50,207 bases of DNA from Candidatus Omnitrophota bacterium (lineage in GTDB: Bacteria; Omnitrophota; Gorgyraeia; Aquiviventales; Aquiviventaceae). The translations under genes and the position numbers were made by a program. Within the stretch, counting starts at the first letter, position 1. The number at the start of each line of letters is the position of its first letter. Where the stretch lies: NCBI GenBank assembly GCA_023247215.1, contig JAHFGX010000005.1:1-50207 (forward strand), written 5' to 3'. The notes under the pieces were generated by a model. That model worked only from the letters and a program-made list of their open reading frames with translations. It was not told the origin of the DNA and searched no databases. Shown here piece by piece: positions 25,340 through 41,478 of the stretch.

Positions 25340-25394
25340 TAGACACCCGCCCAGCTTCCGGCTATAATAAACTGTTTGTGATTTATTTCACAAA
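25340..25394 (+). promoter_or_regulatory. nuoJ promoter (TAGACA-N17-TATAAT) with downstream Rex/CRP-like palindrome
   Basis: TAGACA 25340-25345, TATAAT 25363-25368, TTTGTGATTTATTTCACAAA 25375-25394 placed at the expected transcription start. Confidence 0.75.
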
Positions 25395-25414: not shown

Positions 25415-25912
25415 ATGGCTGAAACCATCGGGTTCTACCTGGTTGCCGCTATGGCCTTGGGTGCCGCGCTCATGGTCGTGATGAGCCGGCATCCGGTCTA
25501 TAGCGTGCTGTCGCTGCTGGTCACCATGTTCTGCCTGGCGGTGCTCTTCATGATGATGGGCGCCTACGTGGTGGCCGCGTTGCAGATCCTGCTCTATGCC
25601 GGCGCGGTCCTGGTGCTGTTCCTCTTTGTTCTGATGCTGCTCAACCTCAACCAGGAGCACGCAGGCCGGAGCAGCCGAAGCTGGGGTTGGGTCGGAACGC
25701 TCATCGCCGGCCTGTTCGCCGGGCAGCTGGCGCAGCTTTTCCTGCGGCCTCTGTCTCCGCTGTGGACGAGCTCCAGCTCGGCCCCGGCCGGCACCGTCGC
25801 CGAGCTGGGCCGGCTGCTGTTTACGACCTACCTGCTGCCGTTTGAGCTCACCTCCTTCCTGATGCTGGCCGCGATCATCGGGGCCGTCACGCTGGCCCGC
25901 GGCCGCCGATGA
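25415..25912 (+). CDS. nuoJ: NADH-quinone oxidoreductase subunit J
   Basis: FYLVAAMALGAALMVVMSRHPVYSVLSLL; membrane protein with GAVLVLFLFVLMLLN. Confidence 0.92.
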   Translation: MAETIGFYLVAAMALGAALMVVMSRHPVYSVLSLLVTMFCLAVLFMMMGAYVVAALQILLYAGAVLVLFLFVLMLLNLNQEHAGRSSRSWGWVGTLIAGLFAGQLAQLFLRPLSPLWTSSSSAPAGTVAELGRLLFTTYLLPFELTSFLMLAAIIGAVTLARGRR

Positions 25913-26207
25913 CGCTGCCCCTCCAGCACTATTTGGTCCTCAGCGGCGTGCTCTTCGCCATCGGGCTGGCCGGCATCCTCACGCGGCGCAACATCCTCTT
26001 CCTGCTGCTCTCCATTGAGCTGATGTTCAACGCCGCCAACCTGCTGTTCGTCGCCTATGCGCGGATGTGGCACGACCTGGGCGGGCAGGTGATCGTCCTC
26101 TTCATCATTACCGTCGCCGCGGCCGAGGTGACGGTGGGGCTGGCCATCGCCATTTTGATGAGCCGGCAGCTTCGCACCCTGAATGCCGATGAGGCGCGCA
26201 GCTTGAA

Positions 26208-26214
<7 letters not shown>
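25909..26214 (+). CDS. nuoK: NADH-quinone oxidoreductase subunit K
   Basis: HYLVLSGVLFAIGLAGILTRRNILFLLLSIELMFNAANLLFVAY. Confidence 0.95.
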
Positions 26215-28084
<1,870 letters not shown>

Positions 28085-28085
<1 letters not shown>

Positions 28086-29650
28086 TGCCGCCGCTCTCTT
28101 CTTCCTGGATCCTGGCCCTCGTGCTGCTCGCCCCGGCGGCCGCCGCGCTCCTGTTGTGCGTGGTGCCGGCCGCGCAAGCCGTCTGGGTGCGGCGAATTGC
28201 CGTCCTGGCCACCGGCGCGTCCCTCGCCGGCGCGCTGACCATCTTCTTCCACTACAACCGCGCCCTCGCCGGCTACCAGTACGAGATGCTGGTGCCGTGG
28301 ATTTCCTCCTTGGGCATCTCCTTCCACTTGGGCGTGGACGGCATCGGCACGACCCTGGTGCTGCTTCATGCGCTGTGCGCCTTCTGCGGGGTGCTGATTT
28401 CCTATGCCATCACAGACCGCGTCAAGGAGTACTACATCTTCTACCTCGTCCTCATCACCGGCGTGTTCGGGGTCTTCACGTCGCTGGACGTGTTCTTCAT
28501 CTACTTCTTTTACGAAATGGCCGTCATCCCCATGTACCCGCTGATCGGCATCTGGGGCAGCGACGTGAAGGAGCACGGCATGGTGCGCTTCTCCAAGGAA
28601 TACGCGGCCATGAAGCTGACGATTTACCTGACCGCCGGCGCCGTGCTCGCCCTGGTCGGCCTGTTGTGGCTGTATGCCAGCTCCGGGCTGCAGACCTCCG
28701 ATCTCGTCGCGCTGGAGCATCACTTCAGCCTCACCCCCCTGGCGCCGCACTTGCAGCGGATGATCTTCCCGCTGCTCGTCATCGGGTTCGGCGTTATCGC
28801 CCCGATGTGGCCGTTCCATAGCTGGTCGCCCATCGGCCATGCCGCCGCGCCCTCCGCCGTGAGCATGCTCCACGCCGGCGTCCTGATGAAGCTGGGCTCC
28901 TACGCCATCCTCCGGCTCGCCGTCTCGCTGATGCCGGACGGGGCGCGCCTGTGGCTCCCCTGGCTGGCCGGCCTGTGCGTGATGAACATCATCTACGGCG
29001 GCTTGGTGGCCATGGCGCAGAAGGACCTCAAGCTCATCATCGGCTATTCCTCTTCCAGCCACATGGGCTACGTGCTCCTGGGCATTGCCGTGTTGACGCC
29101 GGTGGGGCTCAACGGCGCGGTGCTGCTGATGTTCGCCCACGGCCTCATGACGGCGCTGGCCTTCGCGCTCGTCGGGCATGTCTATGACCAGACCCATACC
29201 CGCTACCTGCCGGAGCTGGGCGGTCTGGCGAAGTCGCTGCCGTTCATCGCCACGTGCGGCGTCATCGCCGCCATGGCCTCCAGCGGCCTGCCGGGGTTCG
29301 CCAACTTCGTGGCCGAGCTGCTCGTGATCGTGGGGGCCTGGGACCAGTACCGGCTGCAAGCCGTGCTGGCGGTCCTGGGCGTGGTCATCACCTCGGTCTA
29401 CATGCTGCGGCTGGTGCGGGGGACGTTCTTCGGCCAGGCGAATGAAAGCCTGCCCCACGCGCGCGATGCCACGACCCCGTTTGCGCGCCTGCCCTATCTG
29501 ATCTTGACCGGCGCGCTGCTGGCCGTGGGCTGCTGGCCCAAGCCGCTGATCTCGCTGATTGATCTCTCCACCCGGCCGATCATCGCCCGGATCGCGCGCG
29601 CCCAGGCGGCCGCGCCGGGGGTGGGATCCACATGGCGGGAGTCGTACTGA
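28085..29650 (+). CDS. nuoM: NADH-quinone oxidoreductase subunit M
   Basis: FFYEMAVIPMYPLIGIWG, PFHSWSPIGHAAAPSAVSMLHAGVLMKLGSYAILR, YSSSSHMGYVLLGI; start MPPLSS overlaps the nuoL stop. Confidence 0.95.
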
Positions 29651-31098
29651 TGAACTGGCACGTCATCGCCGTGGAAGCGGCCCTGAGCCTGTTGGTCGTC
29701 GGGCTGCTGGTCGGCGACCTGCTGCTGCCTTCCGGCCGCAAGCCGCGATTGTGGCTCATCGCGCTCGCGGGGCTCGCCGCGCTGGCCGCGGTGCTCTGGT
29801 GCCAGCGGCCGTGGGTGGGCGAGGTCTTCACCAGCGCGCCGCAGGCCGGCCTCATGACGGGCGGGGCGATGTTCGTGCTGGACCCCTTCGCCTATTACTT
29901 CAAATGGCTCTTCCTGCTGACGACGGGGCTGGTCGTGCTGCTCACCCGGAACGACGCGAAACTGCTCTCCACCCAGGTTGGAGAATTCTACCTCCTGCTG
30001 TATATTGCGCTGCTGGGCATGCTGGTCTTGGCGTCCGTCAACGACCTGCTGCTGCTCTTTATCGGCCTGGAGCTGCTCACGTTCTCCGCCTACGTGATGA
30101 CGGCGTACGTGAAGACCGACCCCAAGGCCGTCGAGGCGGGGATGAAGTACCTGATCCTCGGCTCGGTCTCCTCCGGCTGCCTGATTTACGGGGTGGGGCT
30201 GCTCTATGGCGCGGCGGGCAGCACCAACTTCGACGTGCTGCGGGCGCTCTTCTCGACCGGCGTGATCCCGCCGCTGGCGACCGTGGGCTTGTGGCTCGTC
30301 CTGGTGGGGCTCGGGTTCAAGATCGCGGCCGTGCCGTTCCATCTCTGGGCGCCGGACGTGTACGAAGGCGCGCCCACGCCGGTGGTGGCCTTGCTCTCGG
30401 TCGGCTCGAAGATGGCCGGGATGGTCGCGCTCCTCCGGGTGCTCTATGGCGTGTTCTGGGCCGCCGAGAGCGTGTGGGGGAGCATGCTGGCGGTCATGTC
30501 CGCCGCCACGCTGCTGTACGGCAACCTGGCCGCCATCCCGCAGACCAACATCAAGCGGCTGCTGGGATATTCCTCAATCGGCCACGCGGGCTACTTGCTG
30601 ATGGGCCTGTCGACCGCCACGCTGTTCGGGGCGCAAGCGGTCAGCTTTTACCTGCTGGCGTACCTGTTCAGCAACCTGGCGATCTTCTTCGTGATCACGC
30701 TGGTGTCGAAGGCCGGCGGCAGCGATGCGCTGGACGAGTACAACGGCCTGTCGCGCCGCTCGCCCCTGCTGGCCGCGGCGATGTTCATCGGGCTGTCGTC
30801 GCTGGCCGGGGTGCCGCCGCTGGCGGGCTTCGCGGGCAAATGGTTCGTGCTGCTGGCGACCGTGCAAGACCAGCGCCTGTGGCTCGTGGCTGTCGGAGCG
30901 GTGAACGTGGCCATCTCGCTCTACTACTACTTCATGGTCGTCCGGCGCGTCTACCTGCTGGCCCCTCCCACCGCAACCCCGATCCGGGTGGACGGCCTGA
31001 ACCGGCTGATCCTCTTCTTCCTCCTGGGCGGCATCCTGGTGATCGGAACCGTCCAGGGGCCGTTCCTCGCGCTGCTCTCCCGCGTCGTTACGTTTTAA
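29650..31098 (+). CDS. nuoN: NADH-quinone oxidoreductase subunit N
   Basis: FIGLELLTFSAYVMTAY, PFHLWAPDVYEGAPTPVVALLSVGSKMAGMVALLR, YSSIGHAGYLLMG. Confidence 0.95.
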   Translation: MNWHVIAVEAALSLLVVGLLVGDLLLPSGRKPRLWLIALAGLAALAAVLWCQRPWVGEVFTSAPQAGLMTGGAMFVLDPFAYYFKWLFLLTTGLVVLLTRNDAKLLSTQVGEFYLLLYIALLGMLVLASVNDLLLLFIGLELLTFSAYVMTAYVKTDPKAVEAGMKYLILGSVSSGCLIYGVGLLYGAAGSTNFDVLRALFSTGVIPPLATVGLWLVLVGLGFKIAAVPFHLWAPDVYEGAPTPVVALLSVGSKMAGMVALLRVLYGVFWAAESVWGSMLAVMSAATLLYGNLAAIPQTNIKRLLGYSSIGHAGYLLMGLSTATLFGAQAVSFYLLAYLFSNLAIFFVITLVSKAGGSDALDEYNGLSRRSPLLAAAMFIGLSSLAGVPPLAGFAGKWFVLLATVQDQRLWLVAVGAVNVAISLYYYFMVVRRVYLLAPPTATPIRVDGLNRLILFFLLGGILVIGTVQGPFLALLSRVVTF

Positions 31099-33088: not shown

Positions 33089-33724
33089 TCAATCAGTTGT
33101 TTCCGGCGAGGATTTCAGGCGGCGGAAGTCGTCGAGGGAGAGCTGGACGAACTTCTGGGGCGGATCGGACGGCTTCTTCGACCCCGGGTGGAGCAGCTCG
33201 ATGATGTCGAGCCACATCCCGTCGCGCGAAGTCGCGGCGATGTCGTGCCGCTGCGTGTCCATCCGGATGGCGTCCTCCGGGCAGACTTCCACGCAATAGC
33301 CGCAGTACACGCACTTCCCTAAATCAAGATCGAAGCTCTTCGCCACCTTCTCGATGTTCGGATCCGGGTGCTCGGCCGGGGTAATATAGATGCACTTCGC
33401 CGGGCAGACCGTCTCGCAGAGCATGCAGGCGACGCAGCGTGGCGTGCCGTCGTCGCGCTGCATGAGCCGGTGGCGCGTCCGCAGGCGCGGCGACATCTCG
33501 CGCTGCTGCTCCGGATACTGGATCGTCACCGACGCGGGAATGTCGCGGAACGCCCCGACGCGGTGCGCGATGTGCAGGAACAGGTTGCGCCAGAAGTGCG
33601 TGGAGGTGATCCACAAGCCCAGCGCGATGGACGGCAGGTACGTCTGCTCCCACCACGTCAAGGGCTTGCGCTGATGCGCGCGGCGCAGCCGGTGCAGCAG
33701 CTCGGTGCTCAGTTGAGTTGGCAT
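33089..33724 (-). CDS. nuoI: NADH-quinone oxidoreductase subunit I (2x[4Fe-4S])
   Basis: CVACMLCETVCPAKCIYI and CVYCGYCVEVCPEDAIRM. Confidence 0.95.
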   Translation of the reverse strand: MPTQLSTELLHRLRRAHQRKPLTWWEQTYLPSIALGLWITSTHFWRNLFLHIAHRVGAFRDIPASVTIQYPEQQREMSPRLRTRHRLMQRDDGTPRCVACMLCETVCPAKCIYITPAEHPDPNIEKVAKSFDLDLGKCVYCGYCVEVCPEDAIRMDTQRHDIAATSRDGMWLDIIELLHPGSKKPSDPPQKFVQLSLDDFRRLKSSPETTD

Positions 33725-33728
33725 CTCG

Positions 33729-34853
33729 TCAATGCACCAAGACCCGCAAGAGGCTGGTCAGCCCGATGTTCGCCAGAGAGATGGGAAACAACCCCTTCCA
33801 CCCCAGCGCCATGAGCTGGTCGTAGCGGAACCGGGGCAGCGTCCAGCGGATCGCCATGAACAGCCAGATAAAGAACGAGACCTTCAGGGTAAACGCCCCC
33901 ACCCCCAACAACACCACGGTCAACCGCGACAGCTCGATCGCCCCGCCCCACGGGAAGGCGAACCCGTGCGGCCCCAGATAGGGCACCTGCCACCCGCCGA
34001 AGAAAATCACCGTCGTCAGCGCGGCCACGAGGACCGTCTCCACAAAATCCGTCAGGAAGAACAGCCCGAACTTCATGCCGCTGTACTCCACGAAATAGCC
34101 GATGATCTCCGGCTCGCCTTCGGGTAAATCAAAGGGCACCCGCTTGGTTTCGGCCAACGCCGCCGTCATGAAGACCAGGCACCCCACCGGCTGCACCACC
34201 ACCCCCCACTGCGGGATCCATCCGAACAGGTAGGTGCCTTGCTGACGGATCAGCTCCTGCAGGTCGAGCGTGCCGAACCAGACCACCACACCGATCAACG
34301 ACACCCCCAGCGCGATCTCATACGCCAGCATCTGCGATGCCGCGCGCAACCCGCCCAAGGCCGAGAGGTTGGTGCCGGAGCCCATGCCGGCGAGGATCAC
34401 GCCGTAAACGCCCAGCGATGCCAGGGCCAGCACGTAGAGGAGGGCCGGGTCAATGTGCGCCACCTGCAGATCGACGGTCCGGCCGAAGAGTTGCAGGCTG
34501 TCGCCGAACGGGATCGCCGCGAACGCTACCAGCGCGAAGAAGACCGAGATCCATGGCGCGAGGGTGAAGAGGAACGGCGCGCCGCTGGACGGAATGAAAT
34601 CCTCTTTCGTGAGCAGCTTGATCACGTCCGCCAGCGCGTGCAGCAGCCCCACCCCGCCCAGCTTGCGCAGCACCCAGTTGATCGGCGCCGCCCACCGCCA
34701 CGGCAGGTAAAAGACCGCCCGGTTCGCGCCCACGCGGTCCTGCATCAGAGCGCTCTGCTTGCGCTCCAGCCACGTCTGGATGCCGGCGAGATTCAGGACG
34801 GCAAAGAGCACGATCCCCGCCAGCGCCAATTTGATGAGCAGGTCGGTCCACAT
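33729..34853 (-). CDS. nuoH: NADH-quinone oxidoreductase subunit H
   Basis: TWLERKQSALMQDRVGANRA, PFDLPEGEPEIIGYFVEYSGMKFGLFFLTDF, RWTLPRFRYDQLMALGWKGLFPISLANI. Confidence 0.95.
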   Translation of the reverse strand: MWTDLLIKLALAGIVLFAVLNLAGIQTWLERKQSALMQDRVGANRAVFYLPWRWAAPINWVLRKLGGVGLLHALADVIKLLTKEDFIPSSGAPFLFTLAPWISVFFALVAFAAIPFGDSLQLFGRTVDLQVAHIDPALLYVLALASLGVYGVILAGMGSGTNLSALGGLRAASQMLAYEIALGVSLIGVVVWFGTLDLQELIRQQGTYLFGWIPQWGVVVQPVGCLVFMTAALAETKRVPFDLPEGEPEIIGYFVEYSGMKFGLFFLTDFVETVLVAALTTVIFFGGWQVPYLGPHGFAFPWGGAIELSRLTVVLLGVGAFTLKVSFFIWLFMAIRWTLPRFRYDQLMALGWKGLFPISLANIGLTSLLRVLVH

Positions 34854-34857
34854 CCGC

Positions 34858-36456
34858 TTAGGCCTTCAGCAGCGCCCCGGCGTCGCCGATGATCTCGTAG
34901 GTCAACCCCTTGAAGGCCGGCTCGCGCGCCGCGAGATCGGCGAAGACCGCGGCCGCGTCGGTGAAGCTGACCGGAACCTCGAGGCGGGCCGCCAATTCCG
35001 TCCAGATCTGCCAATCCGGCTTGGCCTCGCCCAGCGGCGCAAACGCCGGCCGGATCCGCTGCACGCGGCCCTGGTCGTTGGTGAAGGTGCCGTCTTTCTC
35101 CGCATAGACCGCGGCGGGCAGCACCAGATGCGCCGCCTGCACGCTGCCGCCGGCGTTGGAGCCCTGGTAGACGAACAGCTCGACACAGTTTTTGACTTGG
35201 TCCGCCGCCGCCTGGCCGTACGCCTCGATCACATCCGGCCCGCAGACGTAGAGCGTCGTCAGCTCGCCTCGCGCGGCCCTCGCAAACAGCCCCGCGGCGT
35301 CGAGCGACAACCCCAGGGCCTGCGCCCCGCGCGTGTTGGGCGAGGTGTCGGCCTTCATCAGGAAATCGTCCTGGCGCCCCGGACGCGCGGGGCCCTGCAC
35401 GGCGACGTTCCGGATCCCCAGCGCCTGGGCCACGCGCTTGGCCACGTAGAGGTCTTCGTTGGTCAATTGGGTGGAGAGGATCACGCCGGCCCGGTCCATC
35501 TGCCGGGCCTCCTGCAGCCGGCGCAGCGTCGAGGCCAGCAGGTCCAGCGCGTCGCTCCATGTGGAGGTCTGGTGGCCGTGTCCGTTGCGATGCTGCACGG
35601 TCGTGAGGCGCTGCTCATCAATCGCCTTGTACCCGTAGCGCCCCGCGTCGCACATCCACCACTGGTTCACGTCGGCGTTGTAGCGGGGCTTCAACCGCAT
35701 GACGCGCGCGCCCTGGGCCACGTGCGGCCGCTCCTTCCGTTCGCGGTTGTCATGGATCTCGATATTGCAGCCCATCGAGCAGCCGGGGCAGACGGACTTG
35801 GTGGAGCCCAAGTACCAGACGCGGCACTTGAAGCGGAAGTCCCGGTCGGTGAGCGCCCCCACCGGGCAGATGTCCACGGTGCAGCCCGAATAGTCGTTCG
35901 TCAGCTCTTTCCCCGGCGCGACCCCGATCTCCGAATGGTCGCCGCGGTTAAAGATGCCCAGCTCGCCGGTCTTGGTGATCTCGTCGCAGAAACGCACGCA
36001 GCGCGAGCAGAGGATGCACCGCTCCGCGTCGAGCATCACCGTCGGGCCGATGGGCACCGCCTTGGGCTTTTTCACCTTCTCTTCGTCGAACTTCGGGTTG
36101 TAGAGCCCGTAGTTCATGTAGTAGTCCTGCAGCCAGCACTCCCCGGCCTGGTCGCAGACCGGGCAGTCGAGCGGGTGGTTGATTAAGAGGAATTCCAGCA
36201 CGTCCTGGCGGGCTTTGAGCACTTTATCCGATGTCGTGTGGACCACCATCCCCTCGGCCGCCGGCGTGTAGCAGGCGATCGGCAGCTTGGGGGATTGTTC
36301 CACCTCCACCAGGCAGATGCGGCAGTTGCCGGCGATGGAGAGGCCGGGATGATAGCAGTAGAACGGCACCGGGCTGCCCGCCTGCTCGCACGCCTGCAAG
36401 ACCGTGGCGCCCTCCGGCACCGTGACCGTCTTGCCGTCAATCGTCAGCGTGGGCAT
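34858..36456 (-). CDS. nuoG: NADH-quinone oxidoreductase subunit G
   Basis: PFYCYHPGLSIAGNCRICLVEVE, CILCSRCVRFCDEI, GCTVDICPVGALTDRDFRFKCRVWYL, CPGCSMGCNIEIHDNR. Confidence 0.94.
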   Translation of the reverse strand: MPTLTIDGKTVTVPEGATVLQACEQAGSPVPFYCYHPGLSIAGNCRICLVEVEQSPKLPIACYTPAAEGMVVHTTSDKVLKARQDVLEFLLINHPLDCPVCDQAGECWLQDYYMNYGLYNPKFDEEKVKKPKAVPIGPTVMLDAERCILCSRCVRFCDEITKTGELGIFNRGDHSEIGVAPGKELTNDYSGCTVDICPVGALTDRDFRFKCRVWYLGSTKSVCPGCSMGCNIEIHDNRERKERPHVAQGARVMRLKPRYNADVNQWWMCDAGRYGYKAIDEQRLTTVQHRNGHGHQTSTWSDALDLLASTLRRLQEARQMDRAGVILSTQLTNEDLYVAKRVAQALGIRNVAVQGPARPGRQDDFLMKADTSPNTRGAQALGLSLDAAGLFARAARGELTTLYVCGPDVIEAYGQAAADQVKNCVELFVYQGSNAGGSVQAAHLVLPAAVYAEKDGTFTNDQGRVQRIRPAFAPLGEAKPDWQIWTELAARLEVPVSFTDAAAVFADLAAREPAFKGLTYEIIGDAGALLKA

Positions 36457-36459
36457 GGA

Positions 36460-36726
36460 TTAATGTGCGGCGCTCAGGATCGTCAGCACGATGGCGGCGA
36501 GGACGGCCAGGCCGACGGCGGTATAAAACATGCTGAGCCTCCGTAAATTCTTCCGAAGTTTCGCCGCGTCATGAATCGTCACCGTCAGGCCGAAGGGTTT
36601 CCACGGCTTCTTCAAAAACCACTGCACCCATCGGTGCGGATGCGCCCACATGAGATAGACGCTGCCGAACCAAAACAGGAAAAAGATTCCGAAAAAGATG
36701 AGGAAGCCGGCATCGACGGCCATCAT
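36460..36726 (-). CDS. Small two-TM hypothetical protein inserted between nuoEF and nuoG
   Basis: ATGA overlap with the nuoEF stop, nuoG start 3 nt after its stop; MMAVDAGFLIFFGIFFLFWFGSVYLMWAHPHRW... and YTAVGLAVLAAIVLTILSA. Confidence 0.75.
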   Translation of the reverse strand: MMAVDAGFLIFFGIFFLFWFGSVYLMWAHPHRWVQWFLKKPWKPFGLTVTIHDAAKLRKNLRRLSMFYTAVGLAVLAAIVLTILSAAH

Positions 36727-38534
36727 GTCTCGATCTCGCATCGCCCGTGGCGGACGTGATATTCAAACTCCGGACGGAACTTGGTGATATAGCTCTGGAT
36801 CGGCCAGGCCGCGGCGTCGGCGAACACGCAGATGGTCTTTCCTTCCATGTTGCCTGCCACGGTCAGCAGGTAGTCCAGGTCCTCCTGGCGCCCGTGCCCG
36901 TCGGCGATGCGGCTCACCACCTTGTGCAGCCAGCCGGTGCCTTCCCGGCAGGGCGAGCATTGGCCGCACGACTCGTGCGCGAAGAACTTGGAGGCATACC
37001 ACAGCGCCTTGACCATGCAGGTCGCGTCGTCCATGACGATCACGCCGGCCGAGCCGGCCATCGTCCCGGCCTCGAGCAGCGAGTCGAAATCCATCGGCAC
37101 GTCAATCTCGTCCGCCCGCAGGATCTTGGCCGAAATCCCGCCCGGCACCACGGCCTTGAGGGCGCGCCCGCCGGGGATGCCGCCCGCGTGGTCGAAGATC
37201 AGTTGGCGCAACGTGACCCCGTGCGAGGCTTCGTACAACCCCGGGCGGTTCACGTGGCCGCTGAGGCTGAACAGGCGCGTGCCGCCGGTGCGCCCGAAGC
37301 CCAGCTTCGCGAACCATTCCCCGCCCTTGCGCAGCAGCGCCGGCACGCAGGCGAGCGTCTCGACGTTGTTGATCACCGTCGGGCAGCCGAACAACCCTTT
37401 GATGGCGGGAAACGGCGGCTTCAGGCGCGGGAAGCCTTTCTTGCCTTCCAGCGATTCCAGGAGCGCGGTCTCTTCGCCGCAGATGTACGCGCCGGCCCCG
37501 CGGTGCACCACGATCTCGAAGTCGAAGGCGCTGTTGAAAATCTTCTTGCCGAGAAAGCCGTATTCGGCCGCCTCGCGGATGGCCTGCTGCAGGATCTGCG
37601 CCGACCGCACGTATTCGCCGCGCAGGTAGATGTAGGCCTTGCGGCAGCCGGTGGCGTAGCCGGCGATGATCATGCCCTCCAGCAGCCGGTGCGGGTCCCG
37701 CTCCACCAGATAGCGGTCCTTGAACGTCCCCGGCTCGCCCTCATCGGCGTTCACGACCAGGAACTTGGGCTGCGTCGTGTCCTTCGGGATAAACGCCCAC
37801 TTTTTCCCCGTGGGGAAGCCCGCCCCGCCCAGGCCGCGAAGATTCGCTTTCGTCACTTCGGCGATCACCTGGTCCGGCGTCAGCTCGGTGACCGCCTTGC
37901 GGGCCATCTGGTAGCCGTCATCGCGGACATAGGTGGCGATCTGTTCGGAGCCCGGCGTGGTGAAGCGGGCGGACAGCACCGGTTCGTTCAAGCCCGGCGC
38001 CCCGCGGAACGCCAAGGGGGCTGGGCTGAGCTGATCCGGATGGGCCACCGCCTGCTCGACAATCTCCGGCGTCAACGGGCCGACATAGGTGTCGTTGACC
38101 TGCATCATCGGGGCGTGCTCGCACGCGCAGAGGCATTCCACCGTCGAGAGGGTGAACCGACCGTCGGGGGTCGTCTGGCCCGGCGCAATGCCCAGCTTCT
38201 TCGAGAGGGCGGCCAGGCTGTGCTCCCCGCCGCGCAGCATGCAGGAGACATTCGCGCAGACCTGCAGGTGATAGGTCCCGACCGGCTGGCGATGATAGAG
38301 CGTGTAGAAGGTCACTACTTCGTGCACGTGCGCCACGGAGATGCCGAGCAAATCCGCCACCCAAGCTTCCGCGTCCATCGAGACGAAGCCCAGGCGCTGC
38401 TGCACCAGATGCAAGACCGAGAGGATGGCGGCTGGCCTGCGCTCATACCGGGCGACGATCTGCTCGGCCTCCGGCCGCAGCGGCTCAAGCGTCGAAGCCG
38501 AGGGAAGGGTGGCGGTGGAGGACATGGGCGTCAC
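36723..38534 (-). CDS. nuoEF: Fused NADH-quinone oxidoreductase subunits E and F
   Basis: NuoE part: AAILSVLHLVQQRLGFVS, VCANVSCMLRGGE, TVECLCACEHAPMMQV. NuoF part: RGLGGAGFPTGKKWAF, NADEGEPGTFKDRYL, ESCGQCSPCREGT; one uninterrupted 603-codon frame (GTG start 38534 or ATG 38525). Confidence 0.94.
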   Translation of the reverse strand: MTPMSSTATLPSASTLEPLRPEAEQIVARYERRPAAILSVLHLVQQRLGFVSMDAEAWVADLLGISVAHVHEVVTFYTLYHRQPVGTYHLQVCANVSCMLRGGEHSLAALSKKLGIAPGQTTPDGRFTLSTVECLCACEHAPMMQVNDTYVGPLTPEIVEQAVAHPDQLSPAPLAFRGAPGLNEPVLSARFTTPGSEQIATYVRDDGYQMARKAVTELTPDQVIAEVTKANLRGLGGAGFPTGKKWAFIPKDTTQPKFLVVNADEGEPGTFKDRYLVERDPHRLLEGMIIAGYATGCRKAYIYLRGEYVRSAQILQQAIREAAEYGFLGKKIFNSAFDFEIVVHRGAGAYICGEETALLESLEGKKGFPRLKPPFPAIKGLFGCPTVINNVETLACVPALLRKGGEWFAKLGFGRTGGTRLFSLSGHVNRPGLYEASHGVTLRQLIFDHAGGIPGGRALKAVVPGGISAKILRADEIDVPMDFDSLLEAGTMAGSAGVIVMDDATCMVKALWYASKFFAHESCGQCSPCREGTGWLHKVVSRIADGHGRQEDLDYLLTVAGNMEGKTICVFADAAAWPIQSYITKFRPEFEYHVRHGRCEIET

Positions 38535-39895
38535 CGGTCCAGCTCCCCGCCGATCATGTTGACGGAGCCGAAGGTCGGCACCAGGTCGGCCAGCATGCCG
38601 CCGATGAGCAGATCCGGGAGTGCTGCCATGATGGTGAAGCAGGGCGGCCGCACGCGGACCCGGTAGGGCCGGTCGCTGCCGTCGCTGACCACGTAAAATC
38701 CCAGCTCGCCGTTGGCCCCCTCGACCGGCGCGTACACTTCGCCTTGAGGCGGCCGGATGCCGTGCCCCATCATCACCAGCTTGAAGTGGTGCATGAGGCC
38801 TTCGATGTTGCCGTAGGTATCTTCCTTCGGCGGCAGGACCGCGCGCCGCTCCGGCGCGTTGATGCCGCAGTGGAAGCTCTTGGTGGAGCCGCCCAGCGTC
38901 GGGTCGGTCACCACGTTGACGCGTTTCATCCCGCCGGTCTGTCCGAGCTTGGCCAGGTCCACCATCGCCGCGGCCGGGATGGCCTGCCCTCCCCCATCCA
39001 CCAGGATCGGCCCCGCCGGGATCTGCTTCAGCGCCTGCTCAACGAGGCGCATGCTCTGCTCCATCTCTTCCATGCGCACGAGGTAGCGATCGTAGTTGTC
39101 ACCGGTGGAGCCGAGCGGCACGTCGAACTGCAGGCGGTCGTACACGAAGTAGGGATAGGCCTTCCGCACGTCGTAGTTGACCCCGGAGCCTCGCAGGAAC
39201 GGGCCGGTGATGCCGTAGGAGATCGCCAGCTCCTTGGAGATGACGCCGGTGCCCTGCATCCGATCCACGAAAATGCGGTTGCGGGTGAGCAGCTTGTCGC
39301 ACTCGATGAGCACCCGACGGACTTCCTCGAGGGCCGCGTGCGTGCGCTGCGCGAACCCCTCCGGCAGGTCGGCCTTGACGCCGCCCACGCGCCCGTAGGA
39401 GATGGTCAACCGCGCCCCGGCGACGGCCTCGATCAGCTCCCACAGCACTTCCCGCGCCTTGATCATGTAGAGGAACACCGTGAACGCCCCCAGCTCCATC
39501 GCCGAGGCGCCCACGCAGGTCAGGTGGTCGGTGATGCGGGAAATTTCGCTCAGGATCACGCGGATGTACTGGCAGCGCTCCGGCGCCTCGATGCCCATCA
39601 GCCGCTCGACGGCCCAGCAGTAGCCGAAATTATTGATCAGGGGGGAGACGTAGTTGAGCCGGTCCGTGTAGGGGATGGCGTTGTTGTAGGGCCCCAGCTC
39701 GCACATCTTCTCGAAGCCGCGGTGCAGGTAGCCGATTTCCACGTCGGTGGCCAGGAGGCGCTCGCCGTCCAGCTCCGCCGTGATCTGGATGATGCCGTGC
39801 ATCGCCGGGTGCGACGGCCCGATGTTCAAAAACATGTGCCGCGTCTCCGTCGAGCGGGTGTGCGGTTCAAGCGGCAGGACGTGGGTGTCGCTCAT
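38531..39895 (-). CDS. nuoD: NADH-quinone oxidoreductase subunit D
   Basis: LNIGPSHPAMHGIIQI, DVEIGYLHRGFEKMCE, GEVYAPVEGANGELGFYVVSDGSDRPYRVRVRPPCF. Confidence 0.96.
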   Translation of the reverse strand: MSDTHVLPLEPHTRSTETRHMFLNIGPSHPAMHGIIQITAELDGERLLATDVEIGYLHRGFEKMCELGPYNNAIPYTDRLNYVSPLINNFGYCWAVERLMGIEAPERCQYIRVILSEISRITDHLTCVGASAMELGAFTVFLYMIKAREVLWELIEAVAGARLTISYGRVGGVKADLPEGFAQRTHAALEEVRRVLIECDKLLTRNRIFVDRMQGTGVISKELAISYGITGPFLRGSGVNYDVRKAYPYFVYDRLQFDVPLGSTGDNYDRYLVRMEEMEQSMRLVEQALKQIPAGPILVDGGGQAIPAAAMVDLAKLGQTGGMKRVNVVTDPTLGGSTKSFHCGINAPERRAVLPPKEDTYGNIEGLMHHFKLVMMGHGIRPPQGEVYAPVEGANGELGFYVVSDGSDRPYRVRVRPPCFTIMAALPDLLIGGMLADLVPTFGSVNMIGGELDR

Positions 39896-39901
39896 CAGGG
39901 G

Positions 39902-40483
39902 CTAGTTGACCGGGCCGATCAGCGGCTGGCGCTTGTTGACGGGGTAGTCCTTGCGGAGCGGGTGCCCTTCAAACGGCTCATACATGAGGATCCGCTTCAG
40001 GTTCGGGTGGCCGGCAAAGCGCACGCCGTACATGTCCCACACTTCGCGCTCGAACCAGTTCGCGGCGCGCCACAGGCCGGTGACGGAGTCCACCACCGCG
40101 TCCTGCGCGGTGACCGGCACTTTGAGGCGCAGGCGGTGGCCGTGCGTCAGCGACGAGAAATGATAGACCACCTCGAAGCGGAACTCGTTCGGCACGCCCC
40201 GCTCCCACATCTCGGCGGTCGGCGCCGGCTTCATGAAGTACGGCAGCGGCGAGGGCGTTGTGAGCGTCGGCGCGCTGCCCTGGAACGAGCCGAAGGAGAG
40301 GTAATCCACGCAGCCCAGGTCCATCAGGAACTCACAGGCCAATTCCGGCGCGTCCCGCAGGGCGGCGCACACCTCCAGCAGCCCCTCGCGCTTGAGGACC
40401 ACCGTCTGGTCTCCCCGGTAGGCATGGGACGCGATCACCCAGTGAGGAAACCGCTCGTGAACCACTCGCGTGACGTCGGACAT
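39902..40483 (-). CDS. nuoC: NADH-quinone oxidoreductase subunit C
   Basis: WFEREVWDMYGVRFAGHPNLKRILMYEPFEGHPLRKDYPV. Confidence 0.95.
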   Translation of the reverse strand: MSDVTRVVHERFPHWVIASHAYRGDQTVVLKREGLLEVCAALRDAPELACEFLMDLGCVDYLSFGSFQGSAPTLTTPSPLPYFMKPAPTAEMWERGVPNEFRFEVVYHFSSLTHGHRLRLKVPVTAQDAVVDSVTGLWRAANWFEREVWDMYGVRFAGHPNLKRILMYEPFEGHPLRKDYPVNKRQPLIGPVN

Positions 40484-40502: not shown

Positions 40503-41048
40503 TTACAGGTGGGCTCCTGGCTGGTGCAGCACGCGCAATTCCGCCGGGCGCCCTTCCGGCCCGGTGGGCGCGTCGGCCAAGGTGCCCAACTGGATCTTGT
40601 CCTGCAGCTTCATCAAGCCGTCCAGCACGTTCTCAGGACGTGGCGGGCAGCCGGGAATGTAGACATCCACCGGGATGATCGTATCAATCCCCATGACGGT
40701 GGCGTAGTTGTCGTAGAAGCCGCCGGTGCAGGTGCACACCCCGAAGGCCACGGCCCATTTGGGCTCCATCATCTGGTCATAGATCCGCTTCAGGACCGGC
40801 GCCATCTTGTGGCTGATGGTGCCGACGACGAACAGCACGTCCGCCTGGCGCGGGGAGAAGCGCGGGAAGCCGGCGCCGAAGCGGTCCACGTCGTAGTGGG
40901 AGCAGGCGGTGGCCATGTACTCCATGCCGCAGCAGGCGGTCACGAACGGATACTGGAAGATGGAGAACTTGCGCGCCCACCCCAGCGCCGCGTCCAGCTT
41001 GGTGGTCATCCAGTTGAGCTTGCCGGCGTCTGCCGTCCCCTGCCCCAT
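40503..41048 (-). CDS. nuoB: NADH-quinone oxidoreductase subunit B
   Basis: FVTACCGMEYMATACSHYDVDRFGAGFPRFSPRQADVLFVVGTIS, GVCTCTGGFY, DVYIPGCPPRPE. Confidence 0.96.
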   Translation of the reverse strand: MGQGTADAGKLNWMTTKLDAALGWARKFSIFQYPFVTACCGMEYMATACSHYDVDRFGAGFPRFSPRQADVLFVVGTISHKMAPVLKRIYDQMMEPKWAVAFGVCTCTGGFYDNYATVMGIDTIIPVDVYIPGCPPRPENVLDGLMKLQDKIQLGTLADAPTGPEGRPAELRVLHQPGAHL

Positions 41049-41052
41049 GTCC

Positions 41053-41409
41053 CTACTCCCAGTCCAAGGCGCCCTTGCGCCACGCATACGCGAACGCGGC
41101 CACGACGATTCCCAGAAACCACGCCATCTCGAACAGGCCGAACCAGCCCAACTCCCGCAGCACGACCCCCCAAGGGAAGAGGAAGATCAGCTCGACGTCA
41201 AAGACGACGAACAGCATGCCCAGGACGTAAAAATGCACCGGCATCCGCCCGGCCGGCAGGGCGATGGGATCCACGCCGCATTCAAACGGCTGTGATTTCA
41301 CCGGGGTGGGCCGGTGCGGTCCCAGGAACCGGTTGGCCACGAGCATGAAGGTGGCCACCAGCCCCGCGAGCACGGCGAAGAACAGGATGGCGAGGTATTC
41401 GAGTGCCAT
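41053..41409 (-). CDS. nuoA: NADH-quinone oxidoreductase subunit A
   Basis: KSQPFECGVDP, HFYVLGMLFVVFDVELIFLFPWGVVLRELG. Confidence 0.95.
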   Translation of the reverse strand: MALEYLAILFFAVLAGLVATFMLVANRFLGPHRPTPVKSQPFECGVDPIALPAGRMPVHFYVLGMLFVVFDVELIFLFPWGVVLRELGWFGLFEMAWFLGIVVAAFAYAWRKGALDWE

Positions 41410-41422
41410 GGGGAAACCTGAC

Positions 41423-41478
41423 TTTGTGATTTATTTCACAAACTCGTCTATCTTAACACCGTCGGCTCGTCCTGTCTA
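41423..41478 (-). promoter_or_regulatory. nuoA promoter (TAGACA-N17-TAAGAT) with downstream Rex/CRP-like palindrome
   Basis: Minus strand TAGACA (41473-41478), 17-nt spacer, TAAGAT (41450-41455), then palindrome 41423-41442, identical on the + strand to the nuoJ operator. Confidence 0.72.

Follow-up and report, generated by a model that had tools for sequence, protein, structure and literature searches.

Two convergent halves of a complex I locus in an Omnitrophota bacterium very probably share control by the redox repressor Rex

INTRODUCTION

The closest described systems are the regulons of the repressor Rex. The Rex regulon of Streptomyces includes nuoA1-N1, atp, cyd and rex-hemA, with control of nuoA1-N1, atp and rex-hemA known from Streptomyces avermitilis, and the Rex consensus has been given as TTGTGAANNNNTTCACAA (PMC5355995). 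The Rex consensus of Staphylococcus aureus is TTGTGAAWWWWTTCACAA (PMC2883068, PMC5355995). The operator sequence in S. aureus, like the one described here, has an AT-only core; however, the named targets there are fermentation and nitrate-respiration genes, whereas here the target is respiratory complex I.

In this work, a stretch of 50,207 nt from a Candidatus Omnitrophota bacterium (contig JAHFGX010000005.1, positions 1 to 50,207; hereafter the window) was analysed together with the genome it belongs to and with related genomes. Rex control of nuo genes is already known from Streptomyces, and the window provides a well-supported further instance. What had been an anonymous palindrome can now probably be named as a site through which complex I is controlled by NADH sensing, in a lineage whose regulation has not been characterized.

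RESULTS

A convergent complex I locus bounded by two promoters

The window carries nuoA-B-C-D-EF-G-H-I leftward from position 41409 and nuoJ-K-L-M-N rightward from position 25415, and two promoters bound this one convergent 16-kb complex I locus (Table 1). Because the first possible start of the nuoM reading frame overlaps nuoL by 121 nt, the true start of nuoM probably lies 3′ of the nuoL stop. The convergent nuoA-I/nuoJ-N arrangement, with 15–20 kb from nuoA to nuoJ, was also found in genomes from other genera of the same family (G008, G013, G017 and G019), and a similar layout occurs in other families of the class (G042, G081 and G098). Given this recurrence, the split of nuo is ancestral and not recent, and the earlier note's picture of an operon that was split here has to be given up. 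Its suggestion that paired operators keep subunit dosage balanced is plausible. The genome contains a second, paralogous nuo set (37–38% identity), the halves of which lie on separate contigs (G000:C30, L142; G000:C3, L143), and the genome motif scan detected no Rex site at this paralogous set.

Table 1. Positions of predicted operators, promoter elements and complex I genes in the window
Feature	Position	Strand	Remark
Rex operator (predicted), nuoA promoter	41423..41442	-	TTTGTGAAATAAATCACAAA along transcription direction
nuoA -35 TAGACA	41473..41478	-	homologous TAGACA/TGGACA in most relatives
nuoA -10 TAAGAT	41450..41455	-	7 nt ahead of operator
nuoA	41053..41409	-	PF00507
nuoB	40503..41087	-	PF01058
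nuoC	39902..40483	-	PF00329
nuoD	38531..39895	-	PF00346
nuoE-nuoF, fused in one reading frame	36723..38534	-	PF01257 + PF01512 + PF10589
nuoG	34858..36456	-	PF22117, PF10588, PF00384
nuoH	33729..34853	-	PF00146
nuoI	33089..33724	-	4Fe-4S dicluster
Rex operator (predicted), nuoJ promoter	25375..25394	+	TTTGTGATTTATTTCACAAA
nuoJ -35 TAGACA	25340..25345	+	promoter element
nuoJ -10 TATAAT	25363..25368	+	6 nt ahead of operator
nuoJ	25415..25912	+	PF00499
nuoK	25909..26214	+	PF00420
nuoL	26208..28085	+	PF00361, PF00662
nuoM reading frame	27965..29650	+	PF00361
nuoN (inferred)	29632..31098	+	position and similarity to antiporter-like subunits; frame matches in relatives

The same 20-nt palindrome lies at both promoters

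The 20-mer TTTGTGATTTATTTCACAAA was found on the + strand at 41423–41442 upstream of nuoA and at 25375–25394 upstream of nuoJ, and no other copy was present in the 1.46-Mb genome. The earlier note had claimed that the two sites are identical over all 20 nt, the non-palindromic 6-nt core included, and that with respect to transcription the core points the opposite way at nuoA from nuoJ; both claims were borne out, the identity at both coordinates. It had also described the same -35 and the same 17-nt spacer at the two promoters, with a -10 TAAGAT 7 nt from the palindrome at nuoA, and this geometry was confirmed: the -35/-10 spacer is 17 nt at nuoA and at nuoJ, giving the shared form TAGACA-17-TANNNT. 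As the -10 is only 6–7 nt away, the operator starts at about the expected +1 in both promoters.

Two copies identical over 20 nt might also be a chance occurrence or a dispersed repeat that came to lie near promoters by accident. However, there are only two copies in the genome, which excludes the promoter-unrelated high-copy repeat named beforehand as the refuting case. Furthermore, 100 shuffles of the window gave 0 matches to the 20-mer even with up to 3 mismatches allowed, and roughly 20 genomes in the order show conserved positions before nuoA and nuoJ. The accidental origin is thus refuted, and its remaining probability is negligible. The bases flanking the nuoA and nuoJ copies are unrelated, so the 20-nt identity does not stem from a duplication but reflects shared constraint plus a coincidence of the AT-only core; in relatives the nuoA core and the nuoJ core are usually unlike each other.

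Genome-wide, exact TTGTGAN6TCACAA occurs only at the nuoA and nuoJ places. The sole additional place at one mismatch (C23:3559) is intragenic and was dismissed as an operator. The looser pattern TGTGAN6TCACA has three places in the genome, namely those at nuoA and nuoJ and one in the fchA-folD promoter. This third, Rex-type operator (L206:1955-1974, G000:C53) occupies the spacer between -35 and -10, with the arrangement TTGAAT-CTGTGAATATTTTCACA-TATAAT in this genome, and the site is conserved in the order. The ends of the fchA-folD site (TATGTGAAAATATTCACAGA) are less symmetrical, which counts against reading it as a Rex operator.

The position at fchA-folD also bears on whether the palindrome works as a hairpin in the RNA leader instead of as a DNA operator. 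As RNA, the 20-mer could fold into a hairpin with 7 bp in the stem and 6 nt in the loop, located at the extreme 5′ end of the nuoA and nuoJ transcripts. At fchA-folD, however, the motif occupies the -35/-10 spacer and stays untranscribed, and across genomes it tracks the gene of a DNA-binding protein (see below), so that a function as an RNA hairpin is very unlikely.

The palindromes closely match the operator of Rex, which the genome encodes

The site read on the nuoA strand, TTGTGAAATAAATCACAA, shows one mismatch to the Rex consensus TTGTGAANNNNTTCACAA among the 14 specified positions. The genome contains one Rex gene, located between hemL and ubiE. Its product matches PF06971, the winged-helix N-terminus, with 62 bits, exceeds the NCBIfam Rex equivalog cut-offs, and aligns over its full length with solved Rex structures (E 4e-41), with the RRDLSY stretch and GVGNLG present; it thus has the Rex layout of a winged-helix N-terminus and an NAD-binding domain. 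The genome motif scan showed no operator upstream of rex in this genome, that is, no sign of autoregulation, while an operator precedes rex in G027 and a similar form is seen in several class members. Rex autoregulation is common but not universal, so it is not a defining property.

The half-sites of the TGTGA-N6-TCACA palindrome match the Escherichia coli CRP consensus and would agree with binding by a protein of the CRP/FNR family. No regulator of the CRP/FNR type was found, however, in the 92%-complete genome: the single match to HTH_Crp_2 was below the cut-off, in a protein that we read from its sequence as nucleotidyltransferase-like, and the single cNMP-binding domain in the genome belongs to a presumably patatin-like membrane protein. 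In addition, a site starting at about +1 is ill suited to an activator, and the operators disappear where rex is deleted. A CRP/FNR-type regulator is therefore nearly refuted and has only a very small probability compared with Rex.

Operators are conserved in the order and lost together with rex

The order was sampled with 28 genomes, and the regions 5′ of nuoA and nuoJ were taken wherever present. Sites with 10–14 of the 14 consensus positions were found just 5′ of nuoA and/or nuoJ in 20/28 genomes, and most of these sites had p~0 against block shuffles. The nuoA operator of the rex-containing G016 matches only 10/14 and was scored as present. A few genomes of the order have additional Rex-type targets, namely rex (G027), hemA (G016), atp (G011 and G015) and a second nuo (G011). 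Rex-type sites also lie 5′ of a ShyB/HydB-like hydrogenase subunit in other families of the class.

Natural deletions of rex provide supporting evidence for the Rex reading. In six genomes (G005, G013, G014, G017, G020 and G026) hemL directly adjoins ubiE with no rex in between, showing that the loss is real; five of these (all except G005) have this nuo locus and were used to count co-loss. No nuo operator was present in the nuoA/nuoJ upstream regions of G014, G017, G020 and G026, although the promoters remain. Promoters likewise remain in G013 (L227 and L146), where decaying operators were seen (nuoA 9/14, nuoJ 11/14), as if this genome had been caught soon after rex loss. The five genomes represent four lineages on a NuoABCJKL tree in which some deep nodes are weakly supported. 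Operators were present/absent in 17/1 genomes with rex versus 0/5 rex-deleted genomes (Fisher P = 0.0002, uncorrected for relatedness; G016 scored as present). The discordant genome, G002, has kept rex and the fchA site and has lost the nuoA operator. Three genomes with operators in which rex was not found (G008, G018 and G025) are uninformative, because the hemL ortholog is absent too and the rex locus is probably unassembled.

Taken together, the sites are consensus palindromes abutting promoters, Rex is encoded in the genome, and the sites track the presence and loss of rex. The proposal in the earlier note that nuoA and nuoJ are under one redox regulator is very probably correct, and the consensus, the rex gene and the co-loss point to Rex as this regulator. 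Judged from the sequences, we are highly confident that both palindromes are Rex operators at which the repressor would block nuoA-I and nuoJ-N until NADH accumulates, and that fchA-folD would be controlled likewise.

Relatives with distant operators carry a T-run before the operator

In seven relatives (G010, G007, G015, G003, G025, G006 and G027; leaders L033, L081, L090, L094, L095, L096 and L097), the nuoA leader has a GC hairpin followed by 5–7 T before the operator. The nuoA operator of these relatives lies about 40–60 nt 3′ of the -10, and the T-run ends 8–11 nt before it. At class level (L021-L030, L237-L284 and others), runs of 5–9 T end 5–13 nt before operators that are placed downstream of the promoter, and none is seen where operator and promoter overlap. 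No T-run of this kind occurs in the window.

The T-run was analysed in 92 oriented sites, class members included, with counts limited to sites with a clear promoter. Far operators were defined as lying 22–60 nt downstream of the -10, and a T-run as at least 5 T ending 5–17 nt upstream of the operator (observed 5–13). With run length, distance window and near/far limits set after the data had been seen, and with sites that are not independent because many come from homologous promoters of a single hydrogenase operon, a T-run was present at 33/37 far operators versus 0/41 near operators, which overlap the promoter. Because near operators have little room for a run, the weight of the argument falls on shuffling and on position. 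In shuffled leaders the count averaged 5 and never exceeded 13, against the 33/37 observed, and the operator-proximal 13-nt bin contained T-runs in 40/92 sites, against 2–6/92 in other bins. The distance from T-run to operator was 8.9 ± 2.2 nt (5–13), compared with 21.0 ± 10.6 nt (8–43) from T-run to -10. T-runs were seen across nuoA, hydrogenase, rex and hemA leaders.

Several explanations of the T-run were considered. A symmetric flank for Rex binding was dismissed, since mirror A-runs across the palindrome are rare (4/37). An initial-transcription (stuttering) element is disfavoured by the variable distance to the -10 and the fixed distance to the operator. The hairpin was dismissed as a general leader feature, as it recurs reliably in GC-rich nuoA leaders alone, and a good many of the AT-rich ones lack the length for it; the GC-rich nuoA leaders, in which the T-run follows a GC hairpin, can for that reason be read as an intrinsic terminator.

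DISCUSSION

The binding, the response to NADH and the direction of control proposed here are modelled on studied Rex proteins. Rex is a well-known dimeric repressor responsive to the NADH/NAD+ balance, and it would very probably co-repress both nuo halves at high NAD+/NADH, when, bound to the operators at about +1, it is expected to exclude RNA polymerase from the nuoA-I and nuoJ-N promoters. As NADH builds up, Rex would leave the DNA and both half-operons would be transcribed together; the complex I made on derepression would then re-oxidize NADH. The operator in the fchA-folD spacer would place the tetrahydrofolate cyclohydrolase/dehydrogenase pair under the same Rex control.

For the class as a whole, we tentatively propose two Rex designs, a promoter-overlapping operator that would block initiation, and a far operator with a T-run that would act as a redox roadblock coupled to an RNA-release element; this proposal is possible but less likely than not, and any novelty would lie in the T-run design of the relatives. 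In the yeast Pol I terminator, a Reb1/Nsi1 roadblock has a T-rich element upstream, and polymerase halts 15 bp before the roadblock site (PMC12366685). By that stop distance, the RNA end would fall at the start of the T-run and not at its end, which counts against roadblock-coupled release, and the U-rich leader may instead act in translation or RNA stability. Trans-attenuation by Chlamydia YtgR is a bacterial precedent for repressor-dependent termination (PMC6504234). In E. coli, short spacing between promoter and roadblock lets more polymerase through (PMC4132739). The T-run design, if true, would be a bacterial counterpart of the yeast Pol I T-rich element and Reb1 and would offer a possible answer to how a promoter-proximal roadblock represses well. 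The likeness to Reb1/Nsi1 and to YtgR, which concerns this design only, lies in a DNA-bound protein that halts polymerase and is immediately preceded by a T-tract or a site of termination. In yeast, however, an RNA hairpin is required for efficient release, and the T-run is found here in relatives, outside the window.

The nuo locus itself compares most directly with the Streptomyces Rex regulon, with which it shares the repressor family and the operator consensus; the targets in this order likewise include nuo, atp and hemA. The two systems differ in arrangement: rex lies here between hemL and ubiE without an operator of its own, fchA-folD is an added core target, and in place of the one site over the -35 in Streptomyces there are two convergent half-operons, each with an operator at about +1.
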